A program made the position numbers and the translations under genes. Source: Klebsiella pneumoniae (lineage in GTDB: Bacteria > Myxococcota_A > UBA796 > SXON01). From it: a DNA stretch of 64,000 nt. The notes beneath the pieces are model-generated. The model saw only the letters and a list, made by a program, of their open reading frames with translations, did not search any database and was not told the origin of the DNA. The stretch lies in contig CAMAWH010000022.1 of assembly GCA_945861635.1 (NCBI GenBank), forward strand, positions 1 through 64,000, read 5' to 3'. Positions 4,084 to 10,429 of this stretch are shown piece by piece; the stretch's first letter is position 1; each line of letters begins with the position of its first letter.

Positions 4084-4935
4084 ATGCCCAAGTGGAAGGT
4101 TTCGATCGGGATCATGACTGTCGAGGCGGAAAGCGGCAATTGGCTGGGCGCTCTCGGTCAGGCGCTCCCGCAGGTGGGGATGGAGATGGGCTCGCTCGGG
4201 CGGCTCGTCTGCGCGATTGACCCAGACGGCACGGTGCGCGCGCGTGACCCCGTGACCGATATGGAAATCCTGATCGAGCAGGTGGACCCTCCGGAGGCGG
4301 CTTCGGCGGGTGCGGCCGCGCCCCCGTCGCTCGACATGCCGTCGCCGTCGATTGGAGAGATTTTCGACGCGCCGGAAGAAGCGCCTGCGACCTGGGACGA
4401 CGCGACGATGGATCGGCCGGAAGCGCCGGCTCCCGGCGCGTTGAGTGACCGGATGGATGATCTGTTCATGATGACGGGAGACATCGCCGAGGCAAGCAGT
4501 ATGCGGGGCGCGTGCGAAACGGCCCTCAACATCCTCACCCAGCTCGTCCCTGCCGATGCGGGCGCGGTGTTCGTGCGTACGCGCGGTGGCGATTCCTTGC
4601 GCTTCACGGCGGCGTTGGGGCCGCGGTCGAAAAGCCTCATCGAAACGAATATCCCCATCGATCAGGGCATCGCCGGCTTTGCGTACCAGTTCGGCATGGG
4701 CATCATCATCGAAGATGTTGCCAGAGATGTTCGGCATTACAAGCGGGTAGATCGCTCTACGGGGTACCACACGCGCTCCCTGCTTGCGGTTCCCATCCGG
4801 ACGGCCGACGGCGCTGCGCTCGGTTGCATGGAATTGTTGAACCCGCCCCGCCGATTCGTGGCGGACGACCTGGAAGTCGCGCGCATGGTCGCGCAGTCCC
4901 TCGGGGAATACCTGCGCGGCGCGATCGGGGGATAG
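4084..4935 (+). CDS. GAF-domain sensory protein
   Basis: This 283-residue soluble protein has an N-terminal beta-rich segment (residues 1-65, MPKWKVSIGIMTVEAESG), an Ala/Pro/Asp-rich linker (about 70-125) and a GAF domain (about 130-280) with the usual LAVPIRTADGAALGCMEL core. GAF domains bind small ligands such as cyclic nucleotides or chromophores; the ligand here cannot be told. No output domain is attached, so it may signal through a partner. The start has a strong GGAGGAG site. A TAGGAT hexamer about 16 bases before the ATG is a likely -10 element. Confidence 0.8.
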   Translation: MPKWKVSIGIMTVEAESGNWLGALGQALPQVGMEMGSLGRLVCAIDPDGTVRARDPVTDMEILIEQVDPPEAASAGAAAPPSLDMPSPSIGEIFDAPEEAPATWDDATMDRPEAPAPGALSDRMDDLFMMTGDIAEASSMRGACETALNILTQLVPADAGAVFVRTRGGDSLRFTAALGPRSKSLIETNIPIDQGIAGFAYQFGMGIIIEDVARDVRHYKRVDRSTGYHTRSLLAVPIRTADGAALGCMELLNPPRRFVADDLEVARMVAQSLGEYLRGAIGG

Positions 4936-4998
4936 CCTCGCTTCGTCCGCCGGGCGGAGGACCGCTCACGACGTTCAGGTGGGCGGACATTTTTTGGC

Positions 4999-5030
4999 TT
5001 GCAATTTTCCGGGCCTGAACATACGGTCAG
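4999..5030 (+). promoter_or_regulatory. Candidate SOS promoter and LexA box for imuA
   Basis: TTGCAA at 4999-5004 and TACGGT at 5022-5027 are spaced by 17 bases and resemble -35 and -10 elements. Over the -10 lies CCTGAACATACGGTCAG (5014-5030), an imperfect palindrome. From memory, its complement fits the published Myxococcus LexA consensus CTRHAMRYBYGTTCAGS at 15 of 17 positions. The predicted transcription start coincides with the ATG at 5034, so the mRNA would be leaderless. LexA bound here would block the -10, as expected for an SOS mutagenesis operon. Confidence 0.5.
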
Positions 5031-5033
5031 TGC

Positions 5034-5789
5034 ATGGCGCTCCCTGCCTCCGACCGTGCTTCCGTCCTCGCCCAACTTCGGGCGCGGTTGGACACGCCCC
5101 GTGTTCTGGCTGGGCGTGTTCTGGCGGGTGGGGGTGCGGGGGGCCGGCTTCCGGGGGGGCTGTCCGGGGTGGATGCGTGGTTCGGCGGCTGGCCGTCTCC
5201 GGGCGTCACAGAAATCGTGGGGGCGCCGGGTTCCGGCCGTCTGGCGGCGATTCTTCCTGCACTTTCAACCTTGACGCGTCAAGGACATTCGATCGTGGTG
5301 ATCGATCCAGGCATGCAGATTCATCCCCCGGGTTTGGACATGGATCTGGCGGCTGTGGTGCTGGTGCGTCCACCGGGTGATCAGGCGGGGTGGGTGGCGG
5401 AGCAAGTGGCCCGGTCCGGGGCTGTCCAGGCGATGCTGTTGCTCGATCCGCCGCGGCTCGGGCGTGCGGGGCTGCGCATCACACGGGCCTGTGAGGCGGG
5501 AAACATGGCGGTCTTCGTGGTTGCGGAGGAGGCGGAGGCGGATCTGCCCGCTGCGCTGCGGCTCTCGACGCTTGGCTGGCAAGGGGATGGAATTCGTGTC
5601 CGCTGCACCCGCAGTCGGGATGGGCGTCAGGTGGGGGAGCGTGTGCTTGACCTGCACAACACCGAGTCGGTGGTCGCGGGGCCGGCGGTCGCGGGGCGAG
5701 TAATCACGGGGCCGGTAGGTGCCGGTGTCGTGCGCCCGCGCGGGCAGGTGCTTTCCTTGTTCGGACGGTCGGTTGGGGCGGTGCGGTGA
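5034..5789 (+). CDS. imuA: ImuA-like RecA-fold protein of the mutasome
   Basis: This 251-residue protein has the ImuA/SulA-like RecA fold. A helix-rich N-terminus is followed by LPGGLSGVDAWFGG and a P-loop-like VGAPGSGRLA (about residues 60-72), where the usual Walker Lys is Arg. A hydrophobic strand AMLLLDPPRLG follows near residue 137. ImuA helps assemble translesion synthesis with ImuB and DnaE2 after DNA damage. Its stop overlaps the start of the fused imuB-dnaE2 gene by four bases (GTGA), the expected gene order for this cassette. Identification rests on position and fold-level motifs more than on strict sequence signatures. Confidence 0.8.
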   Translation: MALPASDRASVLAQLRARLDTPRVLAGRVLAGGGAGGRLPGGLSGVDAWFGGWPSPGVTEIVGAPGSGRLAAILPALSTLTRQGHSIVVIDPGMQIHPPGLDMDLAAVVLVRPPGDQAGWVAEQVARSGAVQAMLLLDPPRLGRAGLRITRACEAGNMAVFVVAEEAEADLPAALRLSTLGWQGDGIRVRCTRSRDGRQVGERVLDLHNTESVVAGPAVAGRVITGPVGAGVVRPRGQVLSLFGRSVGAVR

Positions 5790-8700
5790 GGTTCGTCGCG
5801 GCCATCCACCTCCCCACCTTCCGCCTCGTTCGGTGTGGCGTGGAGCCGACGCAGGCGGCGGTGTTGATCGCGTTCGAACGCAACGCAGATCGGGTGCAGA
5901 CGGCTTCGCCGGTCGCGGAAGAGGCGGGTGTGCGCGCCGGAATGACGTTGGCCGAAGCACGCGCCATGCTGCCGGGGCTGGCGCACGAACGGCTGGATTC
6001 CGTAGGCGAAATTGCGGATCTGCTCGCGCTGCGCGACACGCTGTTGCGTTTCAGCCCGGCGGTGGCGGCCGTCCCTCCGGAGGCGCTGCTGGTCGAGATC
6101 GACGAGGACGCGCTCCCAGGGCTGTGCCGTTACTTGACCGGCGTCGGTCACGCCGACGCACGCATCGCGCTTTCGCCAGACGGTCGGGCGAGTCTTGTGC
6201 TGGCGCGGTGCGTGAAAGGGCAAAGTATCGTCGTAAGGCAGTCGGAGCTTGCCGAGGCATTGGCGCCACTCCCCATCGAGTCGATTGGCCTTGCCGACAT
6301 GGTGCTTGACGCGCTGGGTGACGCAGGAATCACGACGATCGGTCAGTTCGCTGCCCTGCCCGTAGCGGCGTTGACGGGCAGATTCGGGGCCGAAGCCGGA
6401 GAACTCCACACGCTGGTTCGTGGGGGTGCGCCCGCGCGGCTCGTACCCGTCATCCCCCCACGTGATGAGCCGGCGTGGCAGATGGAATTTCCCGATCCCG
6501 TCGATGCGATCGAGCCCGTTCTTTTCGTGTTGAACGGGCTCGTACGAGAGTGTTGTGCAGCCCTCGACCGCACGGAAGAAGCGGCCAGCCGCGTGCAGGT
6601 GCGCTTCCGTTTGGAAGAAGGAGAACACCTTGTTCCGGTGAGGCTTGGGCAGGCTGCCCGGGGTGCCGATCGCATCTTCCGGCTCCTGCGGTCACGGCTG
6701 GAGCGCGTCGTGTTTGCCACGCCGGTGGTCGCGGTTGGGTTGGAGTTGTTGGAGGCAAGTCCGTGGCACCCGCCGCAACCGGGGTTGTTCGACCGCTCGC
6801 AGGCCCTCGAGCCACTCCCCGATTTAATCGCGCGCCTGGAAGATGCGCTCGGCCCCGAGGCGGTCGTGCGTCCAGCGGTTGTCGATACCCACCGTCCAGA
6901 AGCCGCCTGGCAAGCTGGGGAGGCAGACCATGTCCCAGAAGGAAAGACCGACCCGGTTCAACCCCACGCGCCCGTCACGATGCCGCGTCCGCGTCCTCCC
7001 CTACTCCTGCCCCTTGCCACCCCTCTTCGGGTTGCTGCAGCGCCGTCCGGCCGGCCACGCGCAGTATTGCTGTCGCAGGATTGGTTTCCGCTCGTGGAGA
7101 CGGAAGGCCCCGAACGCCTGAGTGGGGAATGGTGGAAGAAGACGGATTTTGACCGTGACTACTGGCGGGTCACAATGGGGGATGGCCGGCGGGCCTGGAT
7201 CTTTCGAGAGACCATTGCGTCCAGTGGCCCAGGGCTGGGCTTACAGCGTTGGTACCTGCACGGGTGGCTGGATGCGGGGTCGGCTTTGGGCATGCGTGCG
7301 CAAATCCGAACGTCCAAGGGCGCGCCGCCCAGGTACGCCGAGCTTATCGCCCAGTCGAACTATTCATTTACGGAAGGTGCCAGCTTTCCGGAGGAGCTGT
7401 CCGAGCGGGCAGGGGCGCTTGGGTTGCACGCGCTCGCCCTTACCGACCGTGACGGGGTGTATGGCGCCGTCCGTTTCCATCGAGACGCCAAAACACGGGC
7501 TCTGGCCATGCTGCACGGTAGCCTCCTCACGGTGCGCACAGGGAAGCAGACGCTGGAGGAAGGAGGGGGCGCCGCAAGTGTCGTTGCGCTGGTACAAAGT
7601 CTGGCCGGATGGGGCACGCTGTGCCGCCTCCTCTCCACGGCCCGGGGCGAAGTGCAGAAGGGCAGGGCGGAACTTCCGTTCGAGCGGCTGTGTGAGGCGA
7701 ATGACGGTCTGATCCTCCTCGCGCGCGGAGAGTGGGATGCCGCATCGTTGGCCCGTCTTCGAGAGGCCACGGGTGACCGCCTGTATCGAGCCGTCAGCCG
7801 CCGCCTCGACCCGGGAGAAGAAGCGCGGATCGCATCCCTCGTCGATGAAGAACTTCCCTGTGTCGCGACGGGTGACGTCCTGATGCACGACGCCTCGCGC
7901 CGGCGTCTGCAAGATGTGCTGACCTGCATCCGCCTCGGCCTGACGCTCGACCAAGCGGGAACCCGACTTCAGCCGAATGCCGAGCGGGTTTTACGGAGTC
8001 CCGAGCGCGCACAGCGCCTGTTCGGGGCGTGGCCGGGGCTCGTGGAGCGCACGGTGGAGATCGCGGATCGATGTGCATTTTCCCTCAAAGAACTGCGCTA
8101 CTCCTACCCGCGGGAGGTCGTGCCCGATGGCTATGGCCCGCTGGCGTGGCTGCGGGAACTGGTGCGCCGCGGCTTGTGGGAGCGATACCGCGGCAGTGTC
8201 CCCGCCACCGTGCTGCGTCAGGTCGAGTACGAGCTGGCGGTCATCGAACGAATGGATTTTCCCGCGTACTTTCTGACAGTCCACGATCTCGTCCGCTTTG
8301 CTCGCTCTCGCGGCATCCTCTGTCAGGGGCGCGGCAGTGCCGCCAACTCCGCCGTGTGCTGGGCGCTTGGAATTACCGCTGTAGACCCAGCCCAATCCTC
8401 CTTGCTGTTCGAACGGTTCATCTCGGAAGAGCGGGGCGAGCCGCCGGATATCGATGTTGACTTCGAGCACGAACGTCGGGAAGAGGTGATTCAGTACACG
8501 TACGAAAAGTACGGCCGGAATCGGGCGGCCATGGTCAACGAGGTCATCTGCTACCGCGGACGCATGGCGATGCGAGACGTTGGCAAGGCCGTCGGTTTGG
8601 GCCTCGATCAGGTCGATCGGCTCGCCAAGCTCATGGACAGCTGGTCCATGCGCTCGGTGGACGCCGCCCGTTTATGTGAAGCCGGACTGGATCCGACGGA

Positions 8701-10429
8701 CGGTCGCGTGGACATGGCCGTCGAGTTGGCAAGGCAGGTGCAGGGTTTTCCGCGGCACACGTCCATCCACGTTGGCGGGTTCGTCATCAGTGACGGCCCG
8801 CTGCTCGACCGTGTCCCCATCGAGCGCGCAACCATGGACGCGCGCACCGTGATCCAGTGGGACAAAGACGACATCGACGAACTCGGGTTCGTCAAGGTGG
8901 ACCTGCTCTCTCTCGGCATGCTCACCGCCATCCGCAAATGCTTCGGCCTCATGCGGAGCGCACAGAACGCGCACTACGACCTCGCAACCATCCCGCGTGA
9001 CGATCCCGCGGTGTACGAGATGCTCTGTGACGCGGATTCCATCGGGGTCTTTCAGGTCGAGAGTCGCGCGCAGCAAGGCATGCTGCCGCGTCTCAAGCCG
9101 AGGACGTTCTACGATCTGGTCATTGAGGTCTCGATTGTCCGCCCGGGCCCCATTCAGGGCGGAATGGTGCATCCGTACCTGCGGCGTCGGAACGGAGAAG
9201 AGGCGGTGGAGTACGCCGATCCACGCCTTGTGCCGATTCTCGCGCGGACGTTGGGCGTGCCCATTTTTCAGGAACAGATCATGGCGATGGCGGTGGCCGT
9301 CGGTGGCTTCACTCCGGGGGAGGCGGACCAACTCCGGCGGTCGATGGGGGCGTGGCGTAAGCGCGGCGGACTGGACGAACTGAGCGAAAAGCTGCGCGCC
9401 GGGCTGATCGGAAACGGGCTGACCCCGGAGTACGCGGAGCAGATCCAGAAACAGATTCAGGGCTTTGCGGAATACGGTTTCCCCGAGTCTCACGCCGCAA
9501 GTTTCGCACACCTCGTGTACGTTTCTGCGTGGCAGCGCCGCCACTTTCCGGCGGCGTTCTGCGCCGCCCTGATCAACGCACAACCGATGGGCTTCTACGC
9601 GCCGCGTACGCTCGTTGCGGACGCCCAGCGTCACGGAGTGGAGGTCCGACCCGTCGATGTGCGCCACTCCATGTGGGACTGCACGCTGGAGCCCGCTGCG
9701 GATGGTCCGGCCCTACGCCTCGGCCTCCGGCTGATTCGTGGCTTCCGTGAAGACGCGGCGCGCACCATCGAGGCCGCCCGCGCAGTAGCGCCCTTTGTCG
9801 ATCTCTCGGATCTATCCGTACGGACTGCACTGGATCACACGGCCATGCGTGCGCTCGCACGTGCCGACGCGCTGCGCTCGATTCCGCAGGGCGCCGTACC
9901 CGACGAGGCCGGCGCTCCCCGGCGTGAAACGGCGTGGCAGGTCGAGGGGCTCTGGCCCGGAATGTTTGCGCGCATCCCCCGGACGGAGCCCAAAGCGCCC
10001 CTACCGGTCGCGACGGACGTCGAGGAATTGCAGGCTGACTACCTAACGACGGGGCTCTCTGTAGACCGGCACCCCATCGGTCTGGCGCGTCGCATGCTTG
10101 ATCGGGAAGGGGTCGTGCCCCTTTCCAGGCTGCTGGAGTTACCCAATGAGTCGCGCGTGCGGATCGCCGGTCTGGTGGGCATCCGGCAGCGCCCGGAAAC
10201 GGCGTCGGGCGTGGTCTTCTTGATGCTCGAGGATGAAACCGGCACCGCCAACGTCGTGATCTGGCCGAAGCTCTACGAGAAGGAGCGGAGCGTCATCCGC
10301 GGAGAACGCCTGCTGCGCATCCATGGCGTTTTGCAGCGGCACGACGGCGCGATCAGCGTTGTGGCGCGGACGGTCTCGCCCCTCCGCGTTGCGCCGGATG
10401 TTCGAACGACGAGCCGCGATTTCCGGTGA
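5786..10429 (+). CDS. ImuB-DnaE2 fusion: translesion accessory protein fused to error-prone DNA polymerase III alpha
   Basis: One uninterrupted 1547-codon frame carries two proteins that are normally separate. Residues about 1-500 are ImuB, a catalytically dead Y-family polymerase. The usual metal-binding start is AAIHLPTF, the helix-hairpin-helix region lies around 165-215, QPGLF (331-335) fits the beta-clamp-binding consensus QxxLF, and the ImuB C-terminal region follows. From about residue 510 it is DnaE2. The PHP domain lacks its metal His residues (LIAQSNYSF and TDRDG). The palm has PDIDVDF (887-893; Asp888 and Asp890) and VKVD (Asp1039) as the three catalytic acids. The C-terminus is an OB domain (SRVRIAGLVGIRQRPETASG). 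Both halves are close to full family length. The GTG start overlaps the imuA stop. Confidence 0.93.
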   Translation: MRFVAAIHLPTFRLVRCGVEPTQAAVLIAFERNADRVQTASPVAEEAGVRAGMTLAEARAMLPGLAHERLDSVGEIADLLALRDTLLRFSPAVAAVPPEALLVEIDEDALPGLCRYLTGVGHADARIALSPDGRASLVLARCVKGQSIVVRQSELAEALAPLPIESIGLADMVLDALGDAGITTIGQFAALPVAALTGRFGAEAGELHTLVRGGAPARLVPVIPPRDEPAWQMEFPDPVDAIEPVLFVLNGLVRECCAALDRTEEAASRVQVRFRLEEGEHLVPVRLGQAARGADRIFRLLRSRLERVVFATPVVAVGLELLEASPWHPPQPGLFDRSQALEPLPDLIARLEDALGPEAVVRPAVVDTHRPEAAWQAGEADHVPEGKTDPVQPHAPVTMPRPRPPLLLPLATPLRVAAAPSGRPRAVLLSQDWFPLVETEGPERLSGEWWKKTDFDRDYWRVTMGDGRRAWIFRETIASSGPGLGLQRWYLHGWLDAGSALGMRAQIRTSKGAPPRYAELIAQSNYSFTEGASFPEELSERAGALGLHALALTDRDGVYGAVRFHRDAKTRALAMLHGSLLTVRTGKQTLEEGGGAASVVALVQSLAGWGTLCRLLSTARGEVQKGRAELPFERLCEANDGLILLARGEWDAASLARLREATGDRLYRAVSRRLDPGEEARIASLVDEELPCVATGDVLMHDASRRRLQDVLTCIRLGLTLDQAGTRLQPNAERVLRSPERAQRLFGAWPGLVERTVEIADRCAFSLKELRYSYPREVVPDGYGPLAWLRELVRRGLWERYRGSVPATVLRQVEYELAVIERMDFPAYFLTVHDLVRFARSRGILCQGRGSAANSAVCWALGITAVDPAQSSLLFERFISEERGEPPDIDVDFEHERREEVIQYTYEKYGRNRAAMVNEVICYRGRMAMRDVGKAVGLGLDQVDRLAKLMDSWSMRSVDAARLCEAGLDPTDGRVDMAVELARQVQGFPRHTSIHVGGFVISDGPLLDRVPIERATMDARTVIQWDKDDIDELGFVKVDLLSLGMLTAIRKCFGLMRSAQNAHYDLATIPRDDPAVYEMLCDADSIGVFQVESRAQQGMLPRLKPRTFYDLVIEVSIVRPGPIQGGMVHPYLRRRNGEEAVEYADPRLVPILARTLGVPIFQEQIMAMAVAVGGFTPGEADQLRRSMGAWRKRGGLDELSEKLRAGLIGNGLTPEYAEQIQKQIQGFAEYGFPESHAASFAHLVYVSAWQRRHFPAAFCAALINAQPMGFYAPRTLVADAQRHGVEVRPVDVRHSMWDCTLEPAADGPALRLGLRLIRGFREDAARTIEAARAVAPFVDLSDLSVRTALDHTAMRALARADALRSIPQGAVPDEAGAPRRETAWQVEGLWPGMFARIPRTEPKAPLPVATDVEELQADYLTTGLSVDRHPIGLARRMLDREGVVPLSRLLELPNESRVRIAGLVGIRQRPETASGVVFLMLEDETGTANVVIWPKLYEKERSVIRGERLLRIHGVLQRHDGAISVVARTVSPLRVAPDVRTTSRDFR

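Follow-up and report, generated by a model that had tools for sequence, protein, structure and literature searches.

The window analysed here, a stretch of 64,000 nucleotides in total, carries a gene in which imuB and dnaE2 are joined, and a fusion with a single origin at the base of one bacterial family very probably yields a single-chain ImuB-DnaE2 translesion polymerase. Read directly from the sequence, imuB::dnaE2 is one stop-free frame with a GTG start that encodes a complete ImuB followed by a complete DnaE2. The features of the locus that bear on this reading are as follows:

5034-5789, forward strand: imuA, 251 aa, its stop overlapping the fusion start (GTGA).
5786-10429, forward strand: imuB::dnaE2 fusion gene, 1547 aa, assigned from the open reading frame, family searches and relatives.
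5786-6763, forward strand: ImuB Y-family polymerase-like region (residues 1-326), from the AlphaFold model and Foldseek matches, with the catalytic acidic residues absent.
6776-6790, forward strand: beta-clamp-binding motif QPGLF (residues 331-335).
6800-6883, forward strand: RecA-NT-like region (about residues 339-366), the expected ImuA-binding helix.
6998-7273, forward strand: ImuB-C beta domain (residues 405-496).
7274-7333, forward strand: fusion linker of 20 residues (497-516), with model pLDDT below 50.
7334-10426, forward strand: DnaE2 (residues 517-1547), with PHP, palm, fingers, HhH and OB in that order, from NCBIfam and Pfam.
8447-8455, forward strand: catalytic Asp888 and Asp890 (PDIDVD), conserved in the family.
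8900-8902, forward strand: catalytic Asp1039 (VKVD), conserved in the family.

A flexible segment reaching to residue 404 separates the RecA-NT-like region from ImuB-C. The original prediction, that one frame holds both proteins at full length, was borne out: the identity and completeness of the halves were right, the stop between them is absent, and the positions given for QPGLF (331-335), D888, D890 and D1039 proved exact on re-reading. The ImuB-DnaE2 fusion is confirmed as real and lineage-specific. ImuA is a separate, overlapping gene and does not form part of it.

Family libraries returned weak DinB family matches alone for the ImuB half (residues 1-496; best E 1.2e-9), and a sequence search of this half against the PDB gave no useful match. 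Its AlphaFold model (mean pLDDT 75) was matched by Foldseek in the PDB to MsDpo4 (E 3.5e-19), human Rev1 (6.5e-17) and DinB (about 1e-16), and by inspection the catalytic motifs are replaced by IHLPTF and PPEALLVEI in the motif 1 and SLDE-equivalent regions; on this modelling, the ImuB half is a Y-family fold with a predicted dead active site. An ImuB profile built from the fused family recovers the separate ImuBs that adjoin DnaE2 in other lineages. The clamp, RecA-NT and ImuB-C motifs are all present in the fused protein. The clamp motif reads Q.GLF/L in most members of the fused family and SLGLW in one (L053), and directly after it the family alignment shows a conserved block, EPLPDL.ARLQDALG.EAV, which covers the RecA-NT-like region and its model helix (344-355). 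ImuB-C is defined by model strands at 407-494 and by two motifs invariant in the family, GPER..G.WW...R.YW and LHGW.D. The ImuB of M. tuberculosis likewise has a clamp motif, RecA-NT and ImuB-C in matching order and spacing, and its RecA-NT binds ImuA' (PMC11791113); its clamp motif is required for function (PMC10421592).

The DnaE2 half matches the NCBIfam model PRK05672, error-prone DNA polymerase, over residues 515-1547 with 1337.7 bits (cut-off 939), and contains the Pfam domains PHP, DNA_pol3_alpha, finger, HHH_6 and OB. DnaE1 is encoded separately elsewhere in the source genome. A second DnaE2 was sought in the genomes of the fused family and none was found, DnaE1 being the sole relative besides the fusion.

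The fused family consists of uncultured, mostly freshwater bacteria and was sampled with 22 genomes from six genera. The fused gene occurs in 20 of the 22, across all six genera, and in all 20 carriers the two halves share the same frame with no stops. Both events that could have undone the fusion claim were looked for at the junction: a break in the frame was found in none of the 20 members, and a clean stop and start occurs nowhere within the family, being present in more distant families alone. Piece by piece, the fused proteins are 50-75% identical to each other. The remaining two genomes lack the gene and have the replicative DnaE1 alone, which reflects either incomplete assemblies or loss. 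Elsewhere in the class (71 genomes), 31 others have DnaE2, and in none of them does the open frame that holds it also contain ImuB-C; the order's other genomes that were examined likewise keep separate genes. No fusion outside the family turned up in 122 genomes sampled evenly across the phylum. Several long frames were considered as fusions and rejected. In eight of them (G064, G101, G108, G126, G136, G147, G151 and G157) ImuB lies in another frame or ends before DnaE2, and a DnaE2 frame of 2098 aa in G127 (L152:1-6294) has no ImuB match, its first 1010 residues belonging to no Pfam family; this frame probably extends by chance, the DNA being GC-rich.

A scan of public genomes found, in the best 80 loci among the matches listed, nine fused genes, all from this family, and 71 loci with separate genes; given that coverage, fusions may exist elsewhere in bacteria. 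The top annotated plasmid matches have ImuB and DnaE2 as separate genes. One record titled Bifidobacterium breve (L063, CALQBK020000018.1) carries the fused gene and matches family genome G006, and its title is almost certainly a mislabel. Two unannotated human-faecal records titled 'Bacteriophage sp.' (MT837036.1 and MT839803.1) encode relatives of the ImuB-C/PHP region and are probably bacterial DNA.

Trees were built for each half. A single clade holds the fused proteins both in the ImuB-half tree (SH-aLRT 98) and in the DnaE2-half tree (SH-aLRT 99), in each case nested inside separate genes of the same order, and this single clade in each tree indicates that the fusion arose once. Most sister-family ImuBs terminate at LHGWWD-stop or nearby, and the DnaE2 start overlaps that stop, typically as TGATG. 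At that aspartate, where the sister proteins come to their end (LHGWxD-TGA), the fused chain runs on into a linker. Since the end of the sister ImuB coincides with the start of the linker, two complete and already adjacent genes were joined once, before the six genera split. In six lineages (L072, L073, L074, L116, L118 and L123) a lone stop codon separates ImuB from DnaE2 within a shared frame, leaving them a single base change short of fusion.

The linker bears on how the gene is expressed. It ranges from 19 to 86 residues across the family, is rich in Pro, Ala, Gly, Ser and Arg, has low order in the AlphaFold predictions, and lies between the invariant LHGW at the end of ImuB-C and YAEL at the start of PHP. 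Separate proteins might also, or even mainly, arise from the fused gene if translation starts internally or a protease cuts the linker. The source genome has an ATG at 7292 within the linker, GTG or ATG codons occur at this place in several relatives, and proteases could plausibly attack a linker that is disordered. Set against this, the family does not conserve these start codons: 8 of the 20 fused genomes lack any ATG, GTG or TTG in the linker, and in 5 of the 20, one of them the relative whose full-length match scores highest (G004, L049), such a codon first appears 33-45 residues into PHP. With no usable start ahead of the PHP interior, these five genomes could make an intact DnaE2 only as the fusion, barring an unusual start codon, and the lack of conservation argues that internal initiation is not the general mode. 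We therefore regard separate products as an unlikely account of the family, while additional initiation from the ATG at 7292 may occur in the source genome. The fusion is probably obligate in the family, and from its sequence one uncleaved ImuB-DnaE2 polypeptide would be expected in the cell.

Pairwise dN/dS was 0.08-0.31 in the ImuB half and 0.09-0.17 in the DnaE2 half; in the linker, where codons are few, it was 0.19-0.77. These ratios, well below 1 in both halves for every pair tested, show purifying selection on both and tell against reading the fusion as a non-functional gene in decay, for which the two family genomes without the gene and the fast evolution of the ImuB half might speak. 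The full catalytic triad is also kept, the operon with imuA is intact and upstream regulatory sites are present, so decay is very improbable. That an error in sequencing or assembly dropped a stop or shifted the frame between adjacent genes, as a draft source genome of 128 contigs and the overlap of a few bases between sister-family imuB and dnaE2, which a single indel would fuse, could suggest, is refuted by conservation across the family, with the fusion present in 19 other genomes of five other genera from different samples, linkers of differing length flanked by clear amino-acid conservation on both sides and two independent half-trees agreeing on one origin, and we give it practically no chance.

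The fused gene lies directly 3' of imuA, whose product matches NCBIfam ImuA_translesion with E 3.2e-19, below the curated cut-off. Family loci that extend far enough have imuA directly 5' of the fusion, where it scores 247-309 bits against the profile. A further ORF of 283 aa (4084-4935), directly 5' of imuA, has a GAF-type look by eye. Two candidate regulatory sites lie upstream of imuA:

4985-4998, forward strand: GGACATTTTTTGGC motif, a candidate DNA-damage regulon element.
5015-5030, forward strand: SOS-like palindrome CTGAACATACGGTCAG just before imuA, a CTGAAC-N4-GTTCAG-like box.

A CTGAAC-N4-GTTCAG-like box stands at the matching place in most genera, being absent from genus g2 and from the single g4 genome, and the sister families have one before their imu genes (imuB or dnaE2). 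The source genome encodes lexA, with an upstream site loosely similar to the palindrome. The other motif, GGACATTTTTTGGC, has eight sites in its own genome with up to one mismatch (reversed control 0), and in the form GGACATTTTTTGG(C), to which the source site at 4985-4998 belongs, there are 36 exact GGACATTTTTTGG sites in the family genomes (reversed control 0). These lie upstream of recA (six genomes), of imuA (at least six) and of a Y-family-like ORF, at loci that include L146, L164, L173, L176 and L185, and also next to a divergently oriented gene whose product is a WYL/WCX regulator carrying a PafC-like HTH. The GGACATTTTTTGG sites look like a second DNA-damage regulon, which this WYL/WCX regulator possibly runs. 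On another contig of the source genome (C8), L163:2411-3598 encodes a protein of 396 aa that matches IMS (Y-family) weakly and carries a clamp-like motif, QLPLL, at its C terminus; it has GGACATTTTTTGGC upstream and shares the string CAGTAGAACAGATGCACA with the lexA upstream region. Its product is perhaps a second inactive Y-family accessory.

The closest known system is the ImuA-ImuB-DnaE2 (ImuABC) mutasome of Caulobacter, Pseudomonas and Mycobacterium, which has the same three components in the same order, imuA-imuB-dnaE2. The likeness extends to an inactive Y-family scaffold with clamp motif, RecA-NT and ImuB-C, to an active error-prone C-family polymerase and to an SOS-like box upstream. 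In ImuABC, however, these are three chains, whereas here there are two, with ImuB-C joined to PHP by a flexible linker. Since all 20 carriers encode ImuB and DnaE2 in a single frame, where the mutasome has three polypeptides, the fused system is a variant and not a typical ImuA-ImuB-DnaE2 mutasome member. Passages of PMC12926913 and PMC6511836 describe other DnaE2-based mutasome variants, with a standalone ImuB-C, an inactive PolY, or RecA instead of ImuA. Like the fusion, these are modular reshufflings of the same domains, but they split modules or swap partners, and the passages found in the two papers make no mention of DnaE2 fused to a Y-family member. DnaE1 or PolC carrying a DnaQ proofreading domain, fused or embedded, as given in part of PMC12926913, likewise links a C-family polymerase covalently to another subunit; there the partner is a proofreading exonuclease in a replicative enzyme, and here it is a clamp-binding translesion scaffold. 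The portions consulted of surveys of C- and Y-family polymerases (PMC3919608, PMC6511836 and PMC12926913) and of a paper on ImuB-C (PMC3765255) do not mention an ImuB-DnaE2 fusion. The original prediction had known of no described natural fusion of this pair, and phrase searches of the literature, within openly searchable papers and the passages these returned, agree.

These features suggest how the single chain may work. Damage would lift repression of the imuA-[imuB::dnaE2] operon. The ImuB half would bind the sliding clamp via QPGLF and ImuA, a separate regulator, via the RecA-NT region, and ImuB-C would dock in cis on the PHP of the DnaE2 tethered to it by the flexible linker. Each clamp-bound scaffold would thereby carry its own polymerase, which would copy past the lesion with low fidelity. 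In a published AlphaFold model, described in part of PMC12926913, ImuB meets DnaE2 mainly through ImuB-C, which lies against PHP. The fusion joins exactly these two domains, so that contact in cis is the simplest reading, and we infer both this docking and a functional gain from the fusion. Our own AlphaFold prediction of ImuB-C, linker and PHP, from 10 sequences, was too poor to place the docking (pLDDT 60.7, pTM 0.45). Fixed stoichiometry and permanent tethering of the polymerase to the clamp adaptor, which the original prediction had proposed, can reasonably be inferred.

The family thus likely has an obligate single-chain mutasome, in which DnaE2 is, family-wide, present solely in covalent attachment to its own clamp scaffold through the joining of ImuB-C and PHP. 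Questions in the mutasome field concern the way ImuB retains DnaE2, the ratio of the two proteins, and the importance, if any, of DnaE2 exchange on the scaffold. Part of PMC10421592 states that direct biochemical or structural data are lacking and that stoichiometry could not be predicted from how the genes are organised, and, in the relevant part of PMC12926913, the ImuB-DnaE2 contact is known from AlphaFold models only. If the reading given here is true, the fusion would be natural evidence for the predicted ImuB-C/PHP interface and for an ImuB:DnaE2 unit of 1:1. Its retention across six genera would mean that a covalent unit of this ratio works, and would argue for the contact between ImuB-C and PHP; the single-chain protein would also be useful for structural and biochemical work.
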